Shown piece after piece: positions 1 to 31,669 of a stretch of 40,941 bases of DNA. The DNA is from a virus, in the IMG/VR virus record IMGVR_UViG_3300031552_000010, positions 1 through 40,941 of that record, one strand, 5' to 3'. Under the pieces are notes generated by a model. It was not told the origin of the DNA and made no database searches. It saw only the letters and a program-made list of their open reading frames with translations. Position 1 is the first letter of the stretch. Each line of letters opens with the position of its first letter. The position numbers and the translations under genes are program-made.

Positions 1-3000
1 ATCGTCCAGACAATGTGTATGCTGCAGCTACAGTCAATGCCGCTGGAAGTGTTTTGCAAACACTGTCAGTACAGTTAGGGCCTGCTGGAGCTACTGACAA
101 AACTATCACCGCTCTCCAAGCAGCTACCTCACCGTACATCAAATTTGTAAACGGTTCAGCCAAATGGCAGTTCAGCAATGATGGGACGACCCCACTAGAT
201 TTCGGTACCAGCAACGTAGCAAGCTGGGATGATTTATACGCGCTGGATAAAACTCTTACCATAGACGGCGCAGCACTCACCTTCACACAAACAAGCACAT
301 CTGGACAAGGGTTCACTGTCACGCGTAACCTTCCATCGGGAAGCACTGGCTTGCCAATTATGGGGGTAAGTAATCAGAATGCGGGTGACGACCAGCAAGC
401 GCTCGCTGTAACATCGTCAGGTGGGCCAACATTTGCTGCTGCTCTTGGTGGAGCACCCACTGGTACAGTATCAATTATTAACTCAACTGCGTTGATAAGT
501 AGTGCTCTTGGCGCATCCTCTGATGTGCGCTGCTTCGATACCGCTCTGTACCCAAATGCTGGAGATAATGCTGGGGCGTATTATCGTGGGTTTTACGCAG
601 TTGGAAGTGCTACAGGATCGGCTATCAAATACGCCTTCAACGCCGATGCAAATTGGAATTATGGCCTCTATTCAGAATCCAAAATCAGGTTGATTCTTTC
701 CAACGTGATCAATCCACTAGCTCAGCGTATAGACGTCACTAGTAGTGGGAATACTGTTGGTTTTGTTACACCCATTGTAGACATCAATTTCACACAGGAT
801 GCAGCAGACATCGCTACCATTAACGGTATTGATTTAGGCCTAAGTCCTGATGCCTCTGCTACTAGTGAAACCAGAGGCGTGTATGTTGATGGAAACTGGA
901 CTTACGGGCTGTATTCAGAATCTCCGATTAAAGAGAATATGCTCGGTATCACTGAAACTACGCGGATAGTTGAAGTCGTCGGCACATCAGGTGGTCTGGG
1001 TGCTACTGGTAAGAAAGTCTCCTTAGTTGATATCCAGTGGGCAGAACATGCATCGGCTGAAGTTGCATATATCTACGGAGTGAATATTGATCTTACTCCC
1101 GACGTTTCAGCATCTAATACAAAATACGGAGTGAAGATCGATAATAATTGGACCCACGGATTCCATTCTGCATCTCCTGGTCACATTAGCAGAGGCAGCC
1201 TAACCGGTTCAGATAACTGCTTCAGTGTTGTTGCAAATTCTAGTGGTCTAGGTGGCATAGGCAACGAAGTCAACCTCACCGTTCTCGATTTCACTGAGGA
1301 TGCATCAGACTCAGATGTGGTAAATGGTATTAAGCTGCTATACACGAAAGCAGGTGGCGCGAACACATCGAAGGCAATCAACGTAGATACCGATTGGACC
1401 TACGGAATCTACTCGTCGTCTCCTGGTTACATCGGTCGAGCGGGACTTACTGGTTCTGACGACAGTTTCAGTGTCATCGCAACTTCTAATGACTTGGGAG
1501 GGGTAGGCAACGAGGTCAACTTAATCAATTTAAGTTTCACTGAAAATGCTGCAGACTCAGATGTGGTAAATGGGATCAAATTACAGTATACAACGGCTGG
1601 TGGTGCGAACACAACGAAAGCTGTCAATGTTAACAATTCATGGGATTATGGTCTGTCGTCGGCATCTCCAGCGCAGGTGCTCTTATCTTCAGTAACTACC
1701 ACAAAAATCGCGTGTGAGTTTGGTGTTGGAACGAGTAGCTTAGGTGCGGCGCAAACTGCAACCATTTGCAGGGCCACATATACAGCCAGTGGTACCGATG
1801 ATGCATCATCCATTGTACGTGGATTCCATGCGGTAGGAGACGCTGGCAGCGCATCGATCAACAAACAAGCACTCTTAATCGACGCGGCGTGGGACTATGG
1901 CGTCTACTCTCTAGCGGCCACCAACAGCTTTTATTACACATTCCCAGCTACCACGGTTAACACCACACCAATAGTAGGTGTAGTTGCAACGACACCGGGC
2001 ACCGCAATGGGAGCGAGTTCGCAGATCTACGCGGTGAAGACTACGATCAACGCGAACTCTGCAGACCCAGCAACTACAGACTACTACGGTTTCCATTCTA
2101 CTTTTGTTCCAAACAGCACCACATCTGGTGATATGTTTGGGTTGTACTTAACTGGATACGGGCACTACAGTAGTGGAAAAGTTGGCAAAGCAATAGTCAG
2201 TGATGGTGGTGTGAGTACACTCTACCATGCACAGGTTGATGGTTTTAGTGGAAGCGAGATTGACCTATTAAAAACTAGCATGGTATCTAGCGGAACCGGG
2301 CTGAACGCGTCGGATGTTGCATCTTGCCTAAGAGTCCGTGTTGGTGCAGATGCCGATGACGCTGGCGAATGGAATGGTGTCTACGCAGAAGGCCCCACCA
2401 CAACAATTACCGGTGGTGCTACCACATATGCCTTCCAGGCGAACTCGGATTGGGATTACGGTTTCTACTCTACATCAGATGTTGCAGTAGTGGAGAGTGG
2501 CTTCACGGGTGGCGTCAATAAAGCAGTTATTGTGGGTATGACATCTGGAGGACTAACAAGTGCTCTTAGTGCTTTGACCGCTGTCAATTTAGATGTGGAT
2601 GGGCACGCTAATGATACGGCAGGTACAGTTACTGCTCTTTCTATAGGTGATCACAATGCTAATGGAGGATCCCTAACTGCTACTCGCGCCATTATTACAG
2701 GACTATATTGGCAGTATGCTCTTAAAGCTGTAAGTGGCCACATAGATCAGCAGGCAACCTTTGCTTCATTATACGATACCTCTGCTGGCATGGTAAACGT
2801 GGTAGCTACCAATTCTACCGCGTTGAGTGACACTGCACGTTACTCCGTCAAATCATATGTATATGGACACGCAAGTGATGCATCTTCTGCCACTCTTTAT
2901 AACTTCCATGCAAATGCTGACACTACAGGTAGTGCTGCTAAGATAGCCTATTATGCAGGTGCAAGTGGAAGTAATGGGTTGTGGTACGGATTCCGCTCAC

Positions 3001-4022
3001 AGAACGTTCCCTACGGTCTCTACTGTGAAAATGGTCAGGCGCAGGTCACCGCGCAGTCGGGTGCTTATACTCCTACAGCTTCTACTTCAGCCCTTATATA
3101 CACCAACCTAACGTCTAGTGGGTTTACCACTGGTGCAGCAACTTGGTACAACAACGCCTCCCGTTATACTTACAATGCTTCGGACACAGATGGAACTTGG
3201 TATGGCTACTTTGCTGAGACAAATGGTACCCCTGTTGCTGGGGTACAAACTATAGGGTACAAAGCACAAGCGAATCTGGATATAGGTTTCGAGTCATATG
3301 CACCTGAAAACAGATTCCAACGTGCCGATGATATCTCGTCCACTACGGCACCTACTGTGCTCATACAGAACATGGACAATGATTCGACTGGAGGAACTGC
3401 CCCTGCATTGCTGGTAGAGAATGCTTATACAGCGATTACTGGAACAGCTATTGAGATCGCTCACGCATACAATGGCGGTAACACGCAAGATACGATGCGT
3501 GCGATTGTATTGTCAAACACATCCAGGAACAGGCGTACATCTCCAATTGAGTTATGGCAACCTCGGATGGCTAATACTACTACAGCAGAATGGTATTTAA
3601 CTCACGGTACGCCAGGTTCTAGTCAACCGGCTCATTATTGGTCAGTTGCTAGCAGTACCGGGGAAGACAGCATATTCGCCCCACTAGTACTTCCACATGG
3701 AAGTACCCTACAAACAGTTGTGGTTTACTTGTATTTAGCAGGTGCACCACCGTCTGCTGGCAACCGTGTTAAAGCGCACGTATACAAAAAATCATATTCA
3801 CTAACAATCACCAACGCAATACTTGCCACTGGAGAAGTAAGCAGTGGAACAGGGACGCAAACTATTTCACTAACCTCAATTGCTGACACAGTAGACGCAA
3901 GAACTTACTCGTACTTTGTAGAAATAGAGGGTCCTGCTGTGTCAGGGTACACCACTGTATATGCACTAGGGCTATATTATGAATATGACATCACTGATCT
4001 CGGTGCTGCTCCTGGATATTAG
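1..4022 (+). CDS. Giant repeat-containing tail fibre/appendage protein, 5' end outside the window
   Basis: The reading frame is open to the left edge (codons from base 3), so the GTG at 15 is probably internal and the gene is cut at its 5' end. At least 1335 residues are present, rich in Ala, Ser, Thr and Gly. A repeat of 81-84 residues ends each time in a Trp-x-Tyr/His-Gly-x-Tyr/His-Ser motif. Its Trp residues fall at 214, 295, 379, 461, 543 and 626, counted from base 15, with a further one at 813. The last ~120 residues look like a beta-sandwich tip. Low-complexity repeated beta-rich sequence of this kind is typical of phage fibres, and the following fibre genes agree. The exact role (long tail fibre or capsid fibre) cannot be told. 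Codon composition is AT-richer than the replication genes downstream. Confidence 0.72.
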   Translation, partial: RPDNVYAAATVNAAGSVLQTLSVQLGPAGATDKTITALQAATSPYIKFVNGSAKWQFSNDGTTPLDFGTSNVASWDDLYALDKTLTIDGAALTFTQTSTSGQGFTVTRNLPSGSTGLPIMGVSNQNAGDDQQALAVTSSGGPTFAAALGGAPTGTVSIINSTALISSALGASSDVRCFDTALYPNAGDNAGAYYRGFYAVGSATGSAIKYAFNADANWNYGLYSESKIRLILSNVINPLAQRIDVTSSGNTVGFVTPIVDINFTQDAADIATINGIDLGLSPDASATSETRGVYVDGNWTYGLYSESPIKENMLGITETTRIVEVVGTSGGLGATGKKVSLVDIQWAEHASAEVAYIYGVNIDLTPDVSASNTKYGVKIDNNWTHGFHSASPGHISRGSLTGSDNCFSVVANSSGLGGIGNEVNLTVLDFTEDASDSDVVNGIKLLYTKAGGANTSKAINVDTDWTYGIYSSSPGYIGRAGLTGSDDSFSVIATSNDLGGVGNEVNLINLSFTENAADSDVVNGIKLQYTTAGGANTTKAVNVNNSWDYGLSSASPAQVLLSSVTTTKIACEFGVGTSSLGAAQTATICRATYTASGTDDASSIVRGFHAVGDAGSASINKQALLIDAAWDYGVYSLAATNSFYYTFPATTVNTTPIVGVVATTPGTAMGASSQIYAVKTTINANSADPATTDYYGFHSTFVPNSTTSGDMFGLYLTGYGHYSSGKVGKAIVSDGGVSTLYHAQVDGFSGSEIDLLKTSMVSSGTGLNASDVASCLRVRVGADADDAGEWNGVYAEGPTTTITGGATTYAFQANSDWDYGFYSTSDVAVVESGFTGGVNKAVIVGMTSGGLTSALSALTAVNLDVDGHANDTAGTVTALSIGDHNANGGSLTATRAIITGLYWQYALKAVSGHIDQQATFASLYDTSAGMVNVVATNSTALSDTARYSVKSYVYGHASDASSATLYNFHANADTTGSAAKIAYYAGASGSNGLWYGFRSQNVPYGLYCENGQAQVTAQSGAYTPTASTSALIYTNLTSSGFTTGAATWYNNASRYTYNASDTDGTWYGYFAETNGTPVAGVQTIGYKAQANLDIGFESYAPENRFQRADDISSTTAPTVLIQNMDNDSTGGTAPALLVENAYTAITGTAIEIAHAYNGGNTQDTMRAIVLSNTSRNRRTSPIELWQPRMANTTTAEWYLTHGTPGSSQPAHYWSVASSTGEDSIFAPLVLPHGSTLQTVVVYLYLAGAPPSAGNRVKAHVYKKSYSLTITNAILATGEVSSGTGTQTISLTSIADTVDARTYSYFVEIEGPAVSGYTTVYALGLYYEYDITDLGAAPGY
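651..1908 (+). repeat. Tandem 82-84 codon repeats inside the fibre gene
   Basis: About five consecutive units lie between the Trp codons at 654, 897, 1149, 1395, 1641 and 1890, that is 243, 252, 246, 246 and 249 bases apart. The third-to-fourth and fourth-to-fifth units are closest. A 22-base stretch at 1306-1327 recurs exactly at 1552-1573, one period (246 bases) later. The other units have diverged to protein-level similarity only. Confidence 0.8.
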
Positions 4023-19632: not shown

Positions 19633-20609
19633 TGGCAGCCACAAAATATACCTACAGCATTTCGCAAGACTTCCCTAACCACAAGGAAGACTCTGCAAGG
19701 CTCACTCGCGAAATACAGCAGAGCAGTATTGCCACTGCGCTAGACTACATTAACACCTCAGGTGACGACTGCGACATTTGGTTCAAAGACGCTTTGAGTG
19801 CTGGGGACAAGACTACCCTCGATGGGATTGTTGCTACTCACAGCGGAGAACCGTTGCCTGCTACAGCATCTCCAGTAACCATCGCGGGTGCGCGGTTCGA
19901 CAGTGACGGCAAGCAAGTCATCGTTCCCACTCCTGCACCGTCTGGAAGCTATACCTGGTACACCTCACAAGGAGATGTGCTAGACCCTCTGGCCCGAGGC
20001 GAAGGACAACTAGCTCGTGTAACCTTTGCCGCTGCAGAGACAGGGGTTAAGACGGTAGAGCTTGTGTTCTCGGAAGCTGTGTACATCCATGATGGTGAGA
20101 TCAACTGGCGTGGAATAGAAGATTTCGATGGCACCGATCACTTCTCAGTGTATGTGAAATTCGGCCAGAGCGACGACCTCACCCCAAATCCTGGCGCGGG
20201 TAACTGCAACATCTCTGCTCCGTTTATCATTCCAGCAAATGGTGACGGAGACTATGACATCGACCTCGACACGGCGTGTCCCATTCCCAGCAGTCAGGGA
20301 CAGTGGATAGTAAGTGAAAAGACCGAGGTAATCACCCCATACGTTGAAGGGCAGACGATGGGGAAGTACGATCAGCGTATTGTACTAATGACCGGGTATA
20401 CTCCTCCCAACATGTACCTCGTTAGAAATCTTTCCATGGGCTCGCCTCGTGGCATCTTTGAAATTGACGCTTACATGGTCGAATGGATCTCGAAGCACTG
20501 GAAGCTGGGAATGGAAGTGGATAAAGTCAAGAGCCCAACTAATCCAGTTGAGATGAGCGGCATCATCATGTTGTTCCGGTGGCACGCTACCACCGACGAC
20601 AACCCGTAG
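19632..20609 (+). CDS. Phage virion/tail-associated protein of unknown function
   Basis: The product has 325 residues, and its ATG overlaps the preceding TGA (TGATG), with GGAGAG upstream. Residues 1-75 are helical and contain the element DIWFKDALSAGDKTTLDGIV followed by HSGEPLP, which is seen next to fibre and appendage proteins. The remainder is beta-rich, with Trp/Asp/Gly-rich loops and a C-terminal strand set ending in MLFRWHA. No signal peptide. It closes the first fibre block, directly before the phospholipase gene. It could be a virion adaptor or appendage protein. Confidence 0.5.
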   Translation: MAATKYTYSISQDFPNHKEDSARLTREIQQSSIATALDYINTSGDDCDIWFKDALSAGDKTTLDGIVATHSGEPLPATASPVTIAGARFDSDGKQVIVPTPAPSGSYTWYTSQGDVLDPLARGEGQLARVTFAAAETGVKTVELVFSEAVYIHDGEINWRGIEDFDGTDHFSVYVKFGQSDDLTPNPGAGNCNISAPFIIPANGDGDYDIDLDTACPIPSSQGQWIVSEKTEVITPYVEGQTMGKYDQRIVLMTGYTPPNMYLVRNLSMGSPRGIFEIDAYMVEWISKHWKLGMEVDKVKSPTNPVEMSGIIMLFRWHATTDDNP

Positions 20610-20617
20610 GAAATGAT

Positions 20618-21508
20618 ATGAAACGCGGTTTGGTCATGTCAGGTGGCGCCTCCAAAGGTGCCTTCACACAAGGTGTCCTGGTAGAGCTAGCTCGACACGG
20701 TGAGGAGTACCAGTTTATTAGTGGCGTGAGCGTGGGAGCACTGGAAGCAGGACTCATCAGCCAATATCCAATTGGACAGTTCCAGGACGCGGTGGATGCA
20801 CTTGACGACATCTGGCTTGGGCTCAATGGAGACAAGAGCATCTACAAGAGTTGGCTGCTCGGTACACTTGCTGGACTGATCAACCGAGATGGTTTTACCA
20901 ACAGCAAGCCGCTGTGGAACATCATACAGAGCCACGTCAACGATCAGGCTGCTCGTGAGTCTGGTAGAGAAATCAGAATTGGTACCTGCTCCTACGGCAA
21001 AGGGTTGTACGTAGAAAAAGATCAGAACACACCGGACCTGTGGAAATGGGTTGCCGCCTCGTCAGGGTATTCACCATTCCTGCTTCCCATTTGGATCGAC
21101 GGAGATCTGTGGTTCGACGGTGGCTACCGTTGCGTGACTCCGCTCAAGTCTGCAATCAAAGCGGGCTGCGAAGAGATCGATGTGGTGCTCACTGGTCCAC
21201 CAAAAACTGCGGGGGAAGACCCCCGCGACAACTGGCTAGGTACGAAAATCAACGCCTACCATGTTGGGATGCGCGTTGTTGGTCTCATGGCCGACGAAGT
21301 ATTTTATCGTGACGCGATGTACGCTGAAGCGATGAACCATCTCATCGATGCTGGACATCCTTCGGTTGCGGGTAAGAAAAAGATCAAGGTTCGCCTGTTC
21401 ATGCCAGAGCGTATCCTACCTGGTGGCGGCCTCAGCTTCGATCCACAGCTAATCAGAGACAGACGTGACGAAGGCATACAGGTAGCACAGAAGATACTGG
21501 GAGCGTAA
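20618..21508 (+). CDS. Patatin-like phospholipase
   Basis: The product has 296 residues from the ATG at 20618, which follows the previous stop and a TAGGAA site; the frame is open further upstream but that part overlaps the preceding gene. All patatin signatures are visible. The oxyanion-hole loop SGGASKGAF is at 8-16. The nucleophile elbow GVSVG carries Ser38, and DGG carries catalytic Asp167 in WFDGGY. The conserved SSGYSPFLLP segment precedes the Asp. Patatin enzymes use a Ser-Asp dyad to hydrolyse acyl chains from phospholipids. There is no signal peptide, so the protein should be cytosolic or carried in the virion. Next to membrane and lysis genes, a role in membrane damage, lipid remodelling or lysis timing is plausible (inference). 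Confidence 0.88.
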   Translation: MKRGLVMSGGASKGAFTQGVLVELARHGEEYQFISGVSVGALEAGLISQYPIGQFQDAVDALDDIWLGLNGDKSIYKSWLLGTLAGLINRDGFTNSKPLWNIIQSHVNDQAARESGREIRIGTCSYGKGLYVEKDQNTPDLWKWVAASSGYSPFLLPIWIDGDLWFDGGYRCVTPLKSAIKAGCEEIDVVLTGPPKTAGEDPRDNWLGTKINAYHVGMRVVGLMADEVFYRDAMYAEAMNHLIDAGHPSVAGKKKIKVRLFMPERILPGGGLSFDPQLIRDRRDEGIQVAQKILGA

Positions 21509-24378: not shown

Positions 24379-24561
24379 ATGACTGAAGAAAACAAGTGGG
24401 CTACGTGTTGTCGAGGAAGGAAATGCCCAGAGGTCCTCGTGAAAGAAGATAGTGTCGAAATCAAAGACGATCACGAGGGAGCTGTTAAGCTGACCTTCAG
24501 GGAATTCGATCTAGTGGTAGACGTTGTCAAAAGCATGCGTGAACACCCCGAATCTGAATGA
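24379..24561 (+). CDS. Small Cys-containing hypothetical protein
   Basis: The product has 60 residues. I chose the ATG at 24379 because it begins four bases after the spanin stop; the longer frame start at 24334 lies inside that gene. The Shine-Dalgarno is weak. The N-terminal half has Cys-Cys-x4-Cys (WATCCRGRKCPEV) and the second half is acidic with a VEIKDDHEGAVKLT strand-turn. Three Cys could bind a metal, but a fourth ligand is not obvious. Its TGA overlaps the next ATG (ATGA at 24558), so the two are probably translated together. Confidence 0.5.
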   Translation: MTEENKWATCCRGRKCPEVLVKEDSVEIKDDHEGAVKLTFREFDLVVDVVKSMREHPESE

Positions 24562-24989
24562 CTCTCTCCTTCCTCCTATTCGTCTTCATCTCCTATGGGT
24601 TAGCCTTCCTTGCTGCTGACGCCTCCATCTTTGGTGTATCTGCCAAAGGCTTTCTAAAAGATCCGTCAGACGAGGAGTACATTCGCTCAGCGGGAGTTTT
24701 CCCTTTTCGTCGCTGGGTGCTCCAGTTCCCACTGACATTTGTCCGTAACTTCTTCCAGAAGTTGCTCAAGTGTTACTTCTGTATGGGCATCTGGAGCGGT
24801 GTGGGGGCTCACCTATTACTAAGCCTGTACTCTCATGTGAATCCAAGCTGGCGCAATAGTTACTTTCTTTGGGGTCCTATTGACCTCAAAAACCTGGTGG
24901 TTGGATCGATGGTAGCTGCGGTCATCGGTGCTGTAGGCAACTACATCCTAGATCTCTGCATAGGCTTCCTCGAGAAATACCAGGAGTAG
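24558..24989 (+). CDS. Membrane protein resembling phage DUF1360-type proteins
   Basis: The product has 143 residues, starting in an ATGA overlap. It has an N-terminal hydrophobic helix (~1-22), a central hydrophobic segment around 77-95 that contains LLKCYFCMGIWSG, and a C-terminal one at ~112-137. A Cys-x2-Cys inside a membrane-proximal 'C-x-x-C-x-G-x-W' pattern is typical of DUF1360-like inner-membrane proteins in phages and bacteria, whose function is unknown. It ends the envelope/lysis block. The AGGAG of the next gene overlaps its last codons. Confidence 0.5.
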   Translation: MTLSFLLFVFISYGLAFLAADASIFGVSAKGFLKDPSDEEYIRSAGVFPFRRWVLQFPLTFVRNFFQKLLKCYFCMGIWSGVGAHLLLSLYSHVNPSWRNSYFLWGPIDLKNLVVGSMVAAVIGAVGNYILDLCIGFLEKYQE

Positions 24990-30293: not shown

Positions 30294-30830
30294 ATGATTA
30301 CGCTCGTAAAATTTATGAAAAATCGTCAAGAAGATGCACCCCCGAACAACAAGGTGATATCCAAGACGCTTGGAAAGACTGGGGTGCTCTCTTGGGAACA
30401 CATAAACGGACAAGATGAAGTACCTCAAGCCGAGGAGTTCTGGTATGTTGAGATCGTGAAGGAGAAAGGATCGGGAACCTCGAGAGGGGTATTCATGCTG
30501 CGGCCTATTCAGAAGGTTCCTGAAAAGGCTAAGGATGGTGAACCCGACATCATACACATGATCCCGGGTACGTACACAACAGAGCGGCAAGAGAACACCA
30601 TCCTGCTCCATCCGAAGATTTTGAACTATCCAGAAGGCCTTGGACCAAACTGGATATGCAGCTTGACCATGCGTCGGAAGATCATGAGTAAGTATAAAGA
30701 AAACGGTCAATATACGGTGAACAGCATCATCGTAGTGTTCGATGGTGCAACTGACTGGCCTAGGGAAGAGCTTCCCGGAAAATCCGCACACGATGCGGGA
30801 AGGAGCAGCCTCGACATGGCTCCTGGTTAG
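30294..30830 (+). CDS. Hypothetical protein
   Basis: The product has 178 residues from the ATG at 30294, with GGGAG about 11 bases upstream; an ATG at 30315 is an alternative. It is a soluble, basic, mixed alpha/beta protein with several Trp residues and a central FWYVEIVKEKGSGTSRGVFML strand-loop-strand. The C-terminal 25 residues are polar and probably disordered. No motif or family is recognised. It marks the switch from structural to metabolic genes, 14 bases before the decarboxylase gene. Confidence 0.5.
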   Translation: MITLVKFMKNRQEDAPPNNKVISKTLGKTGVLSWEHINGQDEVPQAEEFWYVEIVKEKGSGTSRGVFMLRPIQKVPEKAKDGEPDIIHMIPGTYTTERQENTILLHPKILNYPEGLGPNWICSLTMRRKIMSKYKENGQYTVNSIIVVFDGATDWPREELPGKSAHDAGRSSLDMAPG

Positions 30831-30844
30831 GTAGGAGTAAGACG

Positions 30845-31270
30845 ATGTACAAGATTGAGGGTACCCATCTCATTGTAGACGCTTATGTACAAGATGCAGC
30901 CACACTCGGGGAAGAGAACATGCTGCTTCTCTTTGACGAGCTCGTGGAAGCATTAGACATGACCTACTTACAACGCCCTCAATGCGTAGAAGTTCCGCTG
31001 GACGAAGCGAAACTCAGCAGTGGCGAAGATGAGGGTGGCTGCTCTTACTATTGCCTCATCACCACGTCACACATCGCAGCGCACACATGGGAGCTTCGTA
31101 AAGCGGTAATGCTAGACGTATTCTCCTGCAAACCATTCGACGCAGAGAAAGCGCTGAATGTTCTTGACAACAGGCTATGCTTCACTGAACATACGAAGAC
31201 AGTAATTCAACGGCTGGATCCACGTGAAGAAGTAATTGTCTCAGCCACCCTATTACAAAGGATGCATTAA
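30845..31270 (+). CDS. speD: S-adenosylmethionine decarboxylase-family (SpeD-like) pyruvoyl enzyme
   Basis: The product has 141 residues, with AGGAG upstream. It opens like SpeD (GTHLIVDAYV...DAATL). The core, from CSYYCLITTSH to AAHTWELRKAVMLDVFSC, aligns without gaps to the active site of Thermotoga-type SpeD. Ser67, Ser75, His80 and Cys95 correspond to Ser55, Ser63 (pyruvoyl-forming), His68 and Cys83. SpeD cleaves itself before the pyruvoyl Ser and decarboxylates AdoMet to supply aminopropyl groups for spermidine. Some SpeD relatives, including phage ones, instead decarboxylate arginine or ornithine, so the substrate is open. The residue before Ser75 is Thr rather than the usual Glu. The length suits the small bacterial class. 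The stop TAA abuts the next ATG. In a phage this would be an auxiliary metabolic gene for polyamines, which bind DNA. Confidence 0.8.
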   Translation: MYKIEGTHLIVDAYVQDAATLGEENMLLLFDELVEALDMTYLQRPQCVEVPLDEAKLSSGEDEGGCSYYCLITTSHIAAHTWELRKAVMLDVFSCKPFDAEKALNVLDNRLCFTEHTKTVIQRLDPREEVIVSATLLQRMH

Positions 31271-31669
31271 ATGAGCTGCTGCCGAGGACGCGCAAAACCT
31301 GCACCTGCTCAAAACGGGAAGCCACCTTGTAAAATACTAGAACAGGGTGGCGCCAACATGCGCTTCTGGGCGATGAACGTTCAAGGCCGGTACGGTCTGT
31401 ACATGCGTGGTGAAACAGGCAGCTTTGTAGACGTTGCCAATTTTATTACCACCTACTCATGTGACGGGCCTGTGGCTAGAACGGTGGCCAACAACCTAGG
31501 GCGCGTGTTGTTGGCGATGAATAAAAACCCCGGGCCATTCCGCGATCAAGCCGCGACTGGCGTCTCCCTGGTAAAGCTGCTGCGCACTGCAGATGCGGTG
31601 CTCAATCCTGGGAGATCTCCAGATGGCCGACAACTTCATCCTTTCGCCCCTCGCAGAAAAAATCTGTGA
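31271..31669 (+). CDS. Hypothetical protein overlapping the DNA polymerase start
   Basis: The product has 132 residues, starting directly after the SpeD-like stop. The N-terminus MSCCRGRAKPAPAQ has a Cys pair followed by a basic, Pro/Ala-rich tail, a pattern seen in some small phage proteins. The middle has a FWAMNVQGRYGLYMRGETG beta-hairpin-like stretch. The last 47 bases overlap the polymerase reading frame and include sequence just after the polymerase start codon, so the C-terminus is constrained by a second frame. No function can be assigned. Confidence 0.5.
   Translation: MSCCRGRAKPAPAQNGKPPCKILEQGGANMRFWAMNVQGRYGLYMRGETGSFVDVANFITTYSCDGPVARTVANNLGRVLLAMNKNPGPFRDQAATGVSLVKLLRTADAVLNPGRSPDGRQLHPFAPRRKNL

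Follow-up and report, generated by a model that had tools for sequence, protein, structure and literature searches.

We propose that a short gene of a tailed phage encodes a self-processing pyruvoyl decarboxylase that acts on a basic amino acid, with arginine more likely than ornithine, and we put the probability of this reading at about two in three. The gene lies at 30845–31270 on the plus strand of the window, by which we mean the whole 40,941-base virus record that was analysed, whose ends are open or unknown. The basis obtained here comprises the protein's family, its fold, its catalytic residues, the clade-wide loss of AdoMet-type positions, and the presence of a canonical SpeD alongside in two phages; the retention of Pro after the HxW motif in most clade members counts against the proposal. 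To our knowledge, the window clade has no assayed member.

In the proposed mechanism, a proenzyme of the SpeD fold would cut itself between Thr74 and Ser75, and Ser75 would become a pyruvoyl group that forms a Schiff base with the alpha-amine of the amino-acid substrate before its decarboxylation, a step in which His80 and Cys95 would assist. Class 1b SpeD acts as a homodimer, and the phage enzyme is likewise predicted to be dimeric. Its substrate would be a basic amino acid instead of AdoMet, conversion of L-arginine to agmatine being likelier than that of L-ornithine to putrescine, and during infection the product may supply the host's synthesis of polyamines.

A class 1b SpeD homologue in a tailed phage

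The product of the open reading frame is a class 1b SpeD homologue, with homology far beyond chance. It matched the Pfam family AdoMet_dc (E 1.2e-16, 61.4 bits versus a curated cutoff of 25) and PHROG 3125, 'S-adenosylmethionine decarboxylase' (E 9e-16). An AlphaFold2 model built from a 52-sequence alignment had a mean pLDDT of 92.5 and aligned with Thermotoga maritima SpeD (1tlu) at Z 15.2 and rmsd 2.4 over 115 residues and with Aquifex SpeD at Z 14.6, and Foldseek matched the model to 2iii at 1.2e-07. A phage SAM lyase (6zm9, Z 6.8) was among the weak fold matches; we considered this identity and set it aside (Z 6.8 versus 15.2). That the protein depletes AdoMet, as phage SAM lyases do, to counter host restriction or CRISPR signalling is extremely unlikely, given that the lyase match, the one point in its favour, does not rise above background Z, that the residues of pyruvoyl chemistry are conserved, and that the AdoMet-binding positions are lost. 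The original prediction had suggested AdoMet depletion as one role and charge balance in DNA packaging as another; neither idea gained support of its own, and the window contig yielded no further polyamine gene.

The SpeD-like gene starts with ATG, with AGGAG a few bases 5' of it, and the ATG of the next gene directly follows its stop codon. No promoter-like or terminator-like match clearly exceeded shuffled sequences. The genes of this block are as follows.

30294..30830, plus strand: upstream gene, 178 aa, without a family; syntenic with speD in relatives L002 and L017
30845..31270, plus strand: SpeD-like proenzyme gene, 141 aa; Pfam AdoMet_dc match and predicted model with Z 15.2 to 1tlu
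31271..31669, plus strand: downstream gene, 132 aa, without a family; abuts the speD stop codon and is syntenic in L002 and L017
31593..34622, plus strand: family A DNA polymerase with an N-terminal UDG domain (Pfam UDG 1.7e-15, DNA_pol_A 3.7e-71)

The closest relative, L002, shares 67% identity over residues 1–126 and the same gene order. Between the two genes pN was 0.27 against a pS of 0.81, at which synonymous sites are saturated, indicating that the SpeD-like protein is under purifying selection. The product of 31271–31669 starts with MSCCRGR or MGCCRGR across the lineage, with counterparts directly after the speD-like gene at 2636–3031 in L002 and 3482–3793 in L017. Homologues of the UDG-domain DNA polymerase also come after speD in both relatives; the polymerase gene is context of the speD block and no part of the enzyme. 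The source of the window is a tailed phage whose genes include a tail sheath (PHROG 15433), the family A DNA polymerase, and topoisomerase II subunits. Elsewhere the window encodes a patatin-like phospholipase at 20579–21508 on the plus strand (PF01734, 2.5e-21) with intact GGASKGAF, GVSVGAL, and DGG motifs, and the product of 24558–24989 (plus strand) has a DUF1360 match barely above the Pfam cutoff (23.4 bits versus 21).

Processing site and substrate pocket

The following codons of the SpeD-like gene bear on its chemistry and specificity.

31025..31039, plus strand: Glu61–Gly65 (EDEGG), an acidic loop that replaces the canonical Phe49-x-Pro51; Asp or Glu before GG in 28/28 clade members
31043..31045, plus strand: Ser67, corresponding to T. 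maritima Ser55; clade members have Ser or Thr
31064..31069, plus strand: Thr74–Ser75, predicted self-cleavage site, from spacing, clade conservation, and homology to T. maritima Ser63
31082..31084, plus strand: His80, equivalent of T. maritima His68; invariant
31094..31096, plus strand: Leu84, where the human enzyme has Glu247, which binds ribose (His+4); 27/28 clade members have Leu, Ile, Ala, or Met
31127..31129, plus strand: Cys95, equivalent of T. maritima Cys83; invariant in the clade

Self-processing of T. maritima SpeD requires Ser63, His68, and Cys83 (PMC10407285). Ser67, Ser75, His80, and Cys95 of the phage protein follow the 8/5/15 spacing of T. maritima Ser55, Ser63, His68, and Cys83, and the alignment thus upholds the original prediction both on these four functional residues and on Thr74 (codon ACG, 31064–31066) standing in place of Glu before Ser75. 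Ser75, His76, His80, and Cys95 showed no variation among clade members. Silent partners tend to lose catalytic residues, and this invariance makes it very unlikely that the protein is a silent or regulatory partner of canonical SpeD comparable to the trypanosome prozyme, a precedent with the same fold (5tvm is among the fold matches); two phages do carry a canonical SpeD alongside, but most of the phage contigs, the window among them, show none.

Relatives were gathered from viral contigs, phage records, and cellular genomes; the clade was recovered by alignment-based searches, and a single-protein search of viral contigs gave only L002. Thr-Ser occupies the processing site in all 28 distinct phage proteins of the window clade, and Thr precedes the pyruvoyl Ser (position −1) in 14/14 pelagiphage-type proteins, that of phage HTVC201P included, and in 48 of 49 SpeDC-like proteins, the exception (L051) being probably misplaced by the sorting rule. 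Glu was found at this position in 12/12 canonical SpeD rows and in 78/79 of the bacterial FSCKPFD group, and phiN3 has Asp; no assayed AdoMet decarboxylase in the compared set has Thr. From these alignments, Thr at −1 is typical of putatively substrate-shifted phage SpeD homologues. The purified HTVC201P enzyme decarboxylates arginine (Km 0.87 mM) and is inactive on ornithine and lysine (PMC9992855), and Thr at −1 therefore allows self-processing. The idea that Thr74 is unusual or decisive was not sustained: the residue is found throughout the clade, many other SpeD homologues of phages have it too, and human AdoMetDC Glu67, the equivalent of the −1 Glu, touches the adenine of AdoMet via its backbone (PMC3686867), so Thr need not itself set the substrate.

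Thr is also one of four residues reported as diagnostic of the ornithine decarboxylase SpeDC (Li et al., PMC10407285); we take it to be the −1 position, as assigned from SpeDC-like sequences. That the window protein is itself a SpeDC-like pyruvoyl ornithine decarboxylase, making putrescine directly, is a lesser possibility that overlaps with the main reading, whose ornithine branch it is. The Thr at −1 that SpeDC-like proteins commonly have would fit it, and putrescine requires no agmatine-converting enzyme, but the remaining diagnostics are missing: at positions assigned from SpeDC-like sequences, Gln occurs in 1/28 clade members, Phe in 0/28, and Tyr in 0/28, leaving only Thr. Like the window protein, SpeDC (PMC10407285; phage LBP and UCP01-04 in PMC9992855) has Thr at −1 and the FSCKPFD motif and is common in phages, but SpeDC-like proteins show Gln at −5, in most cases Asn following the Ser, Phe following the His, and Tyr preceding the Cys strand, all four of which the window protein lacks. 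Most phage SpeDC-like proteins (L026–L092) have Asn, not His, directly after the pyruvoyl Ser (ETSN).

The substrate pocket differs from that of canonical SpeD at positions that bind AdoMet. We matched Leu84 to human Glu247 by offset, four residues past the catalytic His (human His243), and take T. maritima Glu72 to be the equivalent residue by the same offset. Human Glu247 contacts both ribose hydroxyls, O2' and O3' (PMC3686867). Canonical SpeD has Glu or Asp at the residue after HTWP, and phiN3 has Val at the ribose-Glu position. The original prediction had also noted that the flank departs from SESHxxxHTWPE; the change at Leu84 extends across the clade (27/28), but the loss of Pro does not, since 22/28 members keep it, and the missing Pro of HTWEL was accordingly dropped as a clade marker. 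Canonical rows carry an F-x-P-x-G segment with Phe49 and Pro51, in place of which the clade has EDEGG or QDEGG; all 28 distinct members have an acidic residue, Asp or Glu, ahead of GG. As a candidate pocket, this acidic loop may accommodate the positively charged side chain of arginine or ornithine.

Taken with T. maritima SpeD (1tlu) and cyanophage SpeD, the window protein shares the fold (Z 15.2), the pyruvoyl Ser, the His, the Cys, and Ser/Thr55; relative to canonical class 1b SpeD, Glu is replaced by Thr at −1, F-x-P-x-G by EDEGG, HTWPE by HxW-x-L, and TCG by SCK. The HTVC201P arginine decarboxylase (AXH71538; Li et al. 2023, PMC9992855) is, like the window gene, a SpeD-derived phage gene of the SpeD fold family with a Thr-Ser site (ETSHIAFHSW versus ITTSHIAAHTW in the window), without Phe49 and Pro51, and with the same spacing of the Ser55, Ser63, and His68 positions. 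The two proteins are about 30% identical, and HTVC201P differs in its loop (EGNxG versus EDEGG), in two additional residues ahead of the Cys strand, and in having Asp-Glu after HxW where the window has Glu-Leu. Bacterial and archaeal SpeDA arginine decarboxylases (PMC10407285) share with the window protein an FSCK[PD]FD motif and an acidic loop before a G-x-S/T motif, and SpeDA-type rows were its nearest cellular homologues found; unlike it, they have Glu at −1 in 78/79 rows and mostly HTF instead of HxW, and the gene is often beside agmatinase. A Pro that true SpeD conserves is reported to vary in SpeDA (PMC10407285); two positions are candidates for it, and the window protein has Pro at neither, but at one of them 22/28 clade members keep it. 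A different group of phage SpeD-like proteins (L003 at 2983–3360 of LR756501.1, a 735 kb phage, with L045, L050, L054, and L061) combines Glu at the processing site with a PEDxG loop and the FSCKPFD motif, as in bacterial SpeDA-type proteins, and by these motifs is possibly another arginine-decarboxylase-type gene.

The AdoMet_dc family match would also be accounted for if the enzyme did decarboxylate AdoMet, its pocket having diverged, and so raised host spermidine in the manner of other phage SpeD enzymes. The phiN3 enzyme, which has Asp at −1 and lacks HTWPE, restores spermidine (PMC9992855), and the backbone-only adenine contact of the human −1 Glu means that Thr alone does not exclude AdoMet. 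Against this, the clade as a whole has lost both the Phe/Pro segment and the Glu that binds ribose, and Thr at −1 is absent from the assayed AdoMet decarboxylases compared; we consider this alternative improbable. Because phiN3, an AdoMet decarboxylase, also lacks the Glu, the loss of AdoMet-type positions is suggestive only.

Phylogeny and genomic context

The first tree (73 proteins) supported the window clade (99/98) and gave it pelagiphage-type and SpeDC-like proteins together as sister group (95/85), a placement that would suit an ornithine decarboxylase. In a second tree (83 proteins, column 74 removed) it stood beside the pelagiphage arginine decarboxylase group (90/96), and the SpeDC-like proteins formed a clade of their own (100/99), which argues against that alternative. 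Canonical SpeD was a separate clade in both trees (100/99). Motifs alone served to identify the SpeDC-like rows, and the assayed SpeDC phage proteins LBP and UCP01-04 were not found in the phage collection searched. phiN3, a proven AdoMet decarboxylase, fell inside the SpeDC-like clade, showing that substrate is not fixed by tree position. AU tests rejected no alternative, including trees joining the clade to SpeDC or, as an AdoMet decarboxylase would allow, to canonical SpeD (p about 0.3). Since the order between groups differs in the two trees and the AU tests reject nothing, we claim no firm sister group; the trees favour, without proving, kinship with the pelagiphage arginine decarboxylase.

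Two phages carry both versions of the gene. G004 (108,580 bases) has window-type L017/L192 and, 21 kb apart, a canonical SpeD (L178) with the motifs FSPQGVSG...ESHLTWHTWPE; six genes, speD among them, are homologous and in identical order in G004 and the window, placing G004 in the window's own phage lineage. G041 (203,362 bases) has window-type L218 and canonical L280 about 10 kb apart. A canonical SpeD as second gene was found in 2 of about 30 clade contigs, and not on the window, the completeness of all contigs being unknown. Li et al. looked for neofunctionalised copies in genomes that hold two SpeD homologues, and confirmed such copies by biochemistry (PMC10407285). These pairs weigh against AdoMet as the substrate of the window-type protein; with an ornithine decarboxylase they would mirror bacterial SpeD and SpeDC pairs (PMC10407285). 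The original prediction of a substrate other than AdoMet is thus strengthened by the HTVC201P-type Thr, the lost AdoMet positions, and the second canonical SpeD in two phages, while the substrate itself we infer.

Cellular FSCKPFD homologues adjoin an agmatinase-family gene on the same contig in three bacterial or archaeal genomes (G009, G012, and G013), and coordinates that match indicate the same arrangement in G028 and G029; a deoxyhypusine-synthase-family gene is also nearby in G013 and G029. This neighbourhood is the published context of the SpeDA arginine decarboxylase (PMC10407285), since genes for cellular SpeDA cluster with one for agmatinase or for agmatine deiminase, and SpeY is often encoded there as well. 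We favour arginine over ornithine for the window protein because only one of the four SpeDC diagnostics is present and because agmatinase lies beside the nearest cellular FSCKPFD homologues. On the phage contigs, which are fragments, PF00491 (arginase/agmatinase), PF04371 (agmatine deiminase), and PF01916 (deoxyhypusine synthase) were all absent above cutoff, as were spermidine synthase families; G003 had one sub-threshold spermidine synthase match. With no agmatinase or agmatine deiminase on the phage contigs, agmatine would need host enzymes. The proven arginine decarboxylase gene of HTVC201P likewise has no adjoining agmatinase or agmatine deiminase, and use of its product by host enzymes has already been proposed (PMC9992855).

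A further possibility is a SpeD-derived decarboxylase with its own pocket (the DEGG loop and HxW-x-Leu) and a substrate beyond AdoMet, arginine, and ornithine, to which we give little credence. Were a new-substrate reading true, phages that also have canonical SpeD would run two SpeD-derived polyamine steps from one genome.

Implications for SpeD-family annotation

Phages reshape host polyamine supply. A phage SpeD-derived arginine decarboxylase, as we favour here, is of a kind already known (Li et al. 2023, PMC9992855), and a subfamily with this loop and pocket pattern appears to be new, as no description of it was found in the literature searched. At least 28 distinct proteins belong to the clade, from phage contigs as long as 435 kb, and the AdoMet decarboxylase name given to it by the family libraries used is probably wrong. 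SpeD homologues labelled as AdoMet decarboxylases may really be arginine or ornithine decarboxylases. With AdoMet-binding positions changed, the pyruvoyl machinery intact, and two phages carrying both versions, the clade offers a test of which residues set the substrate.
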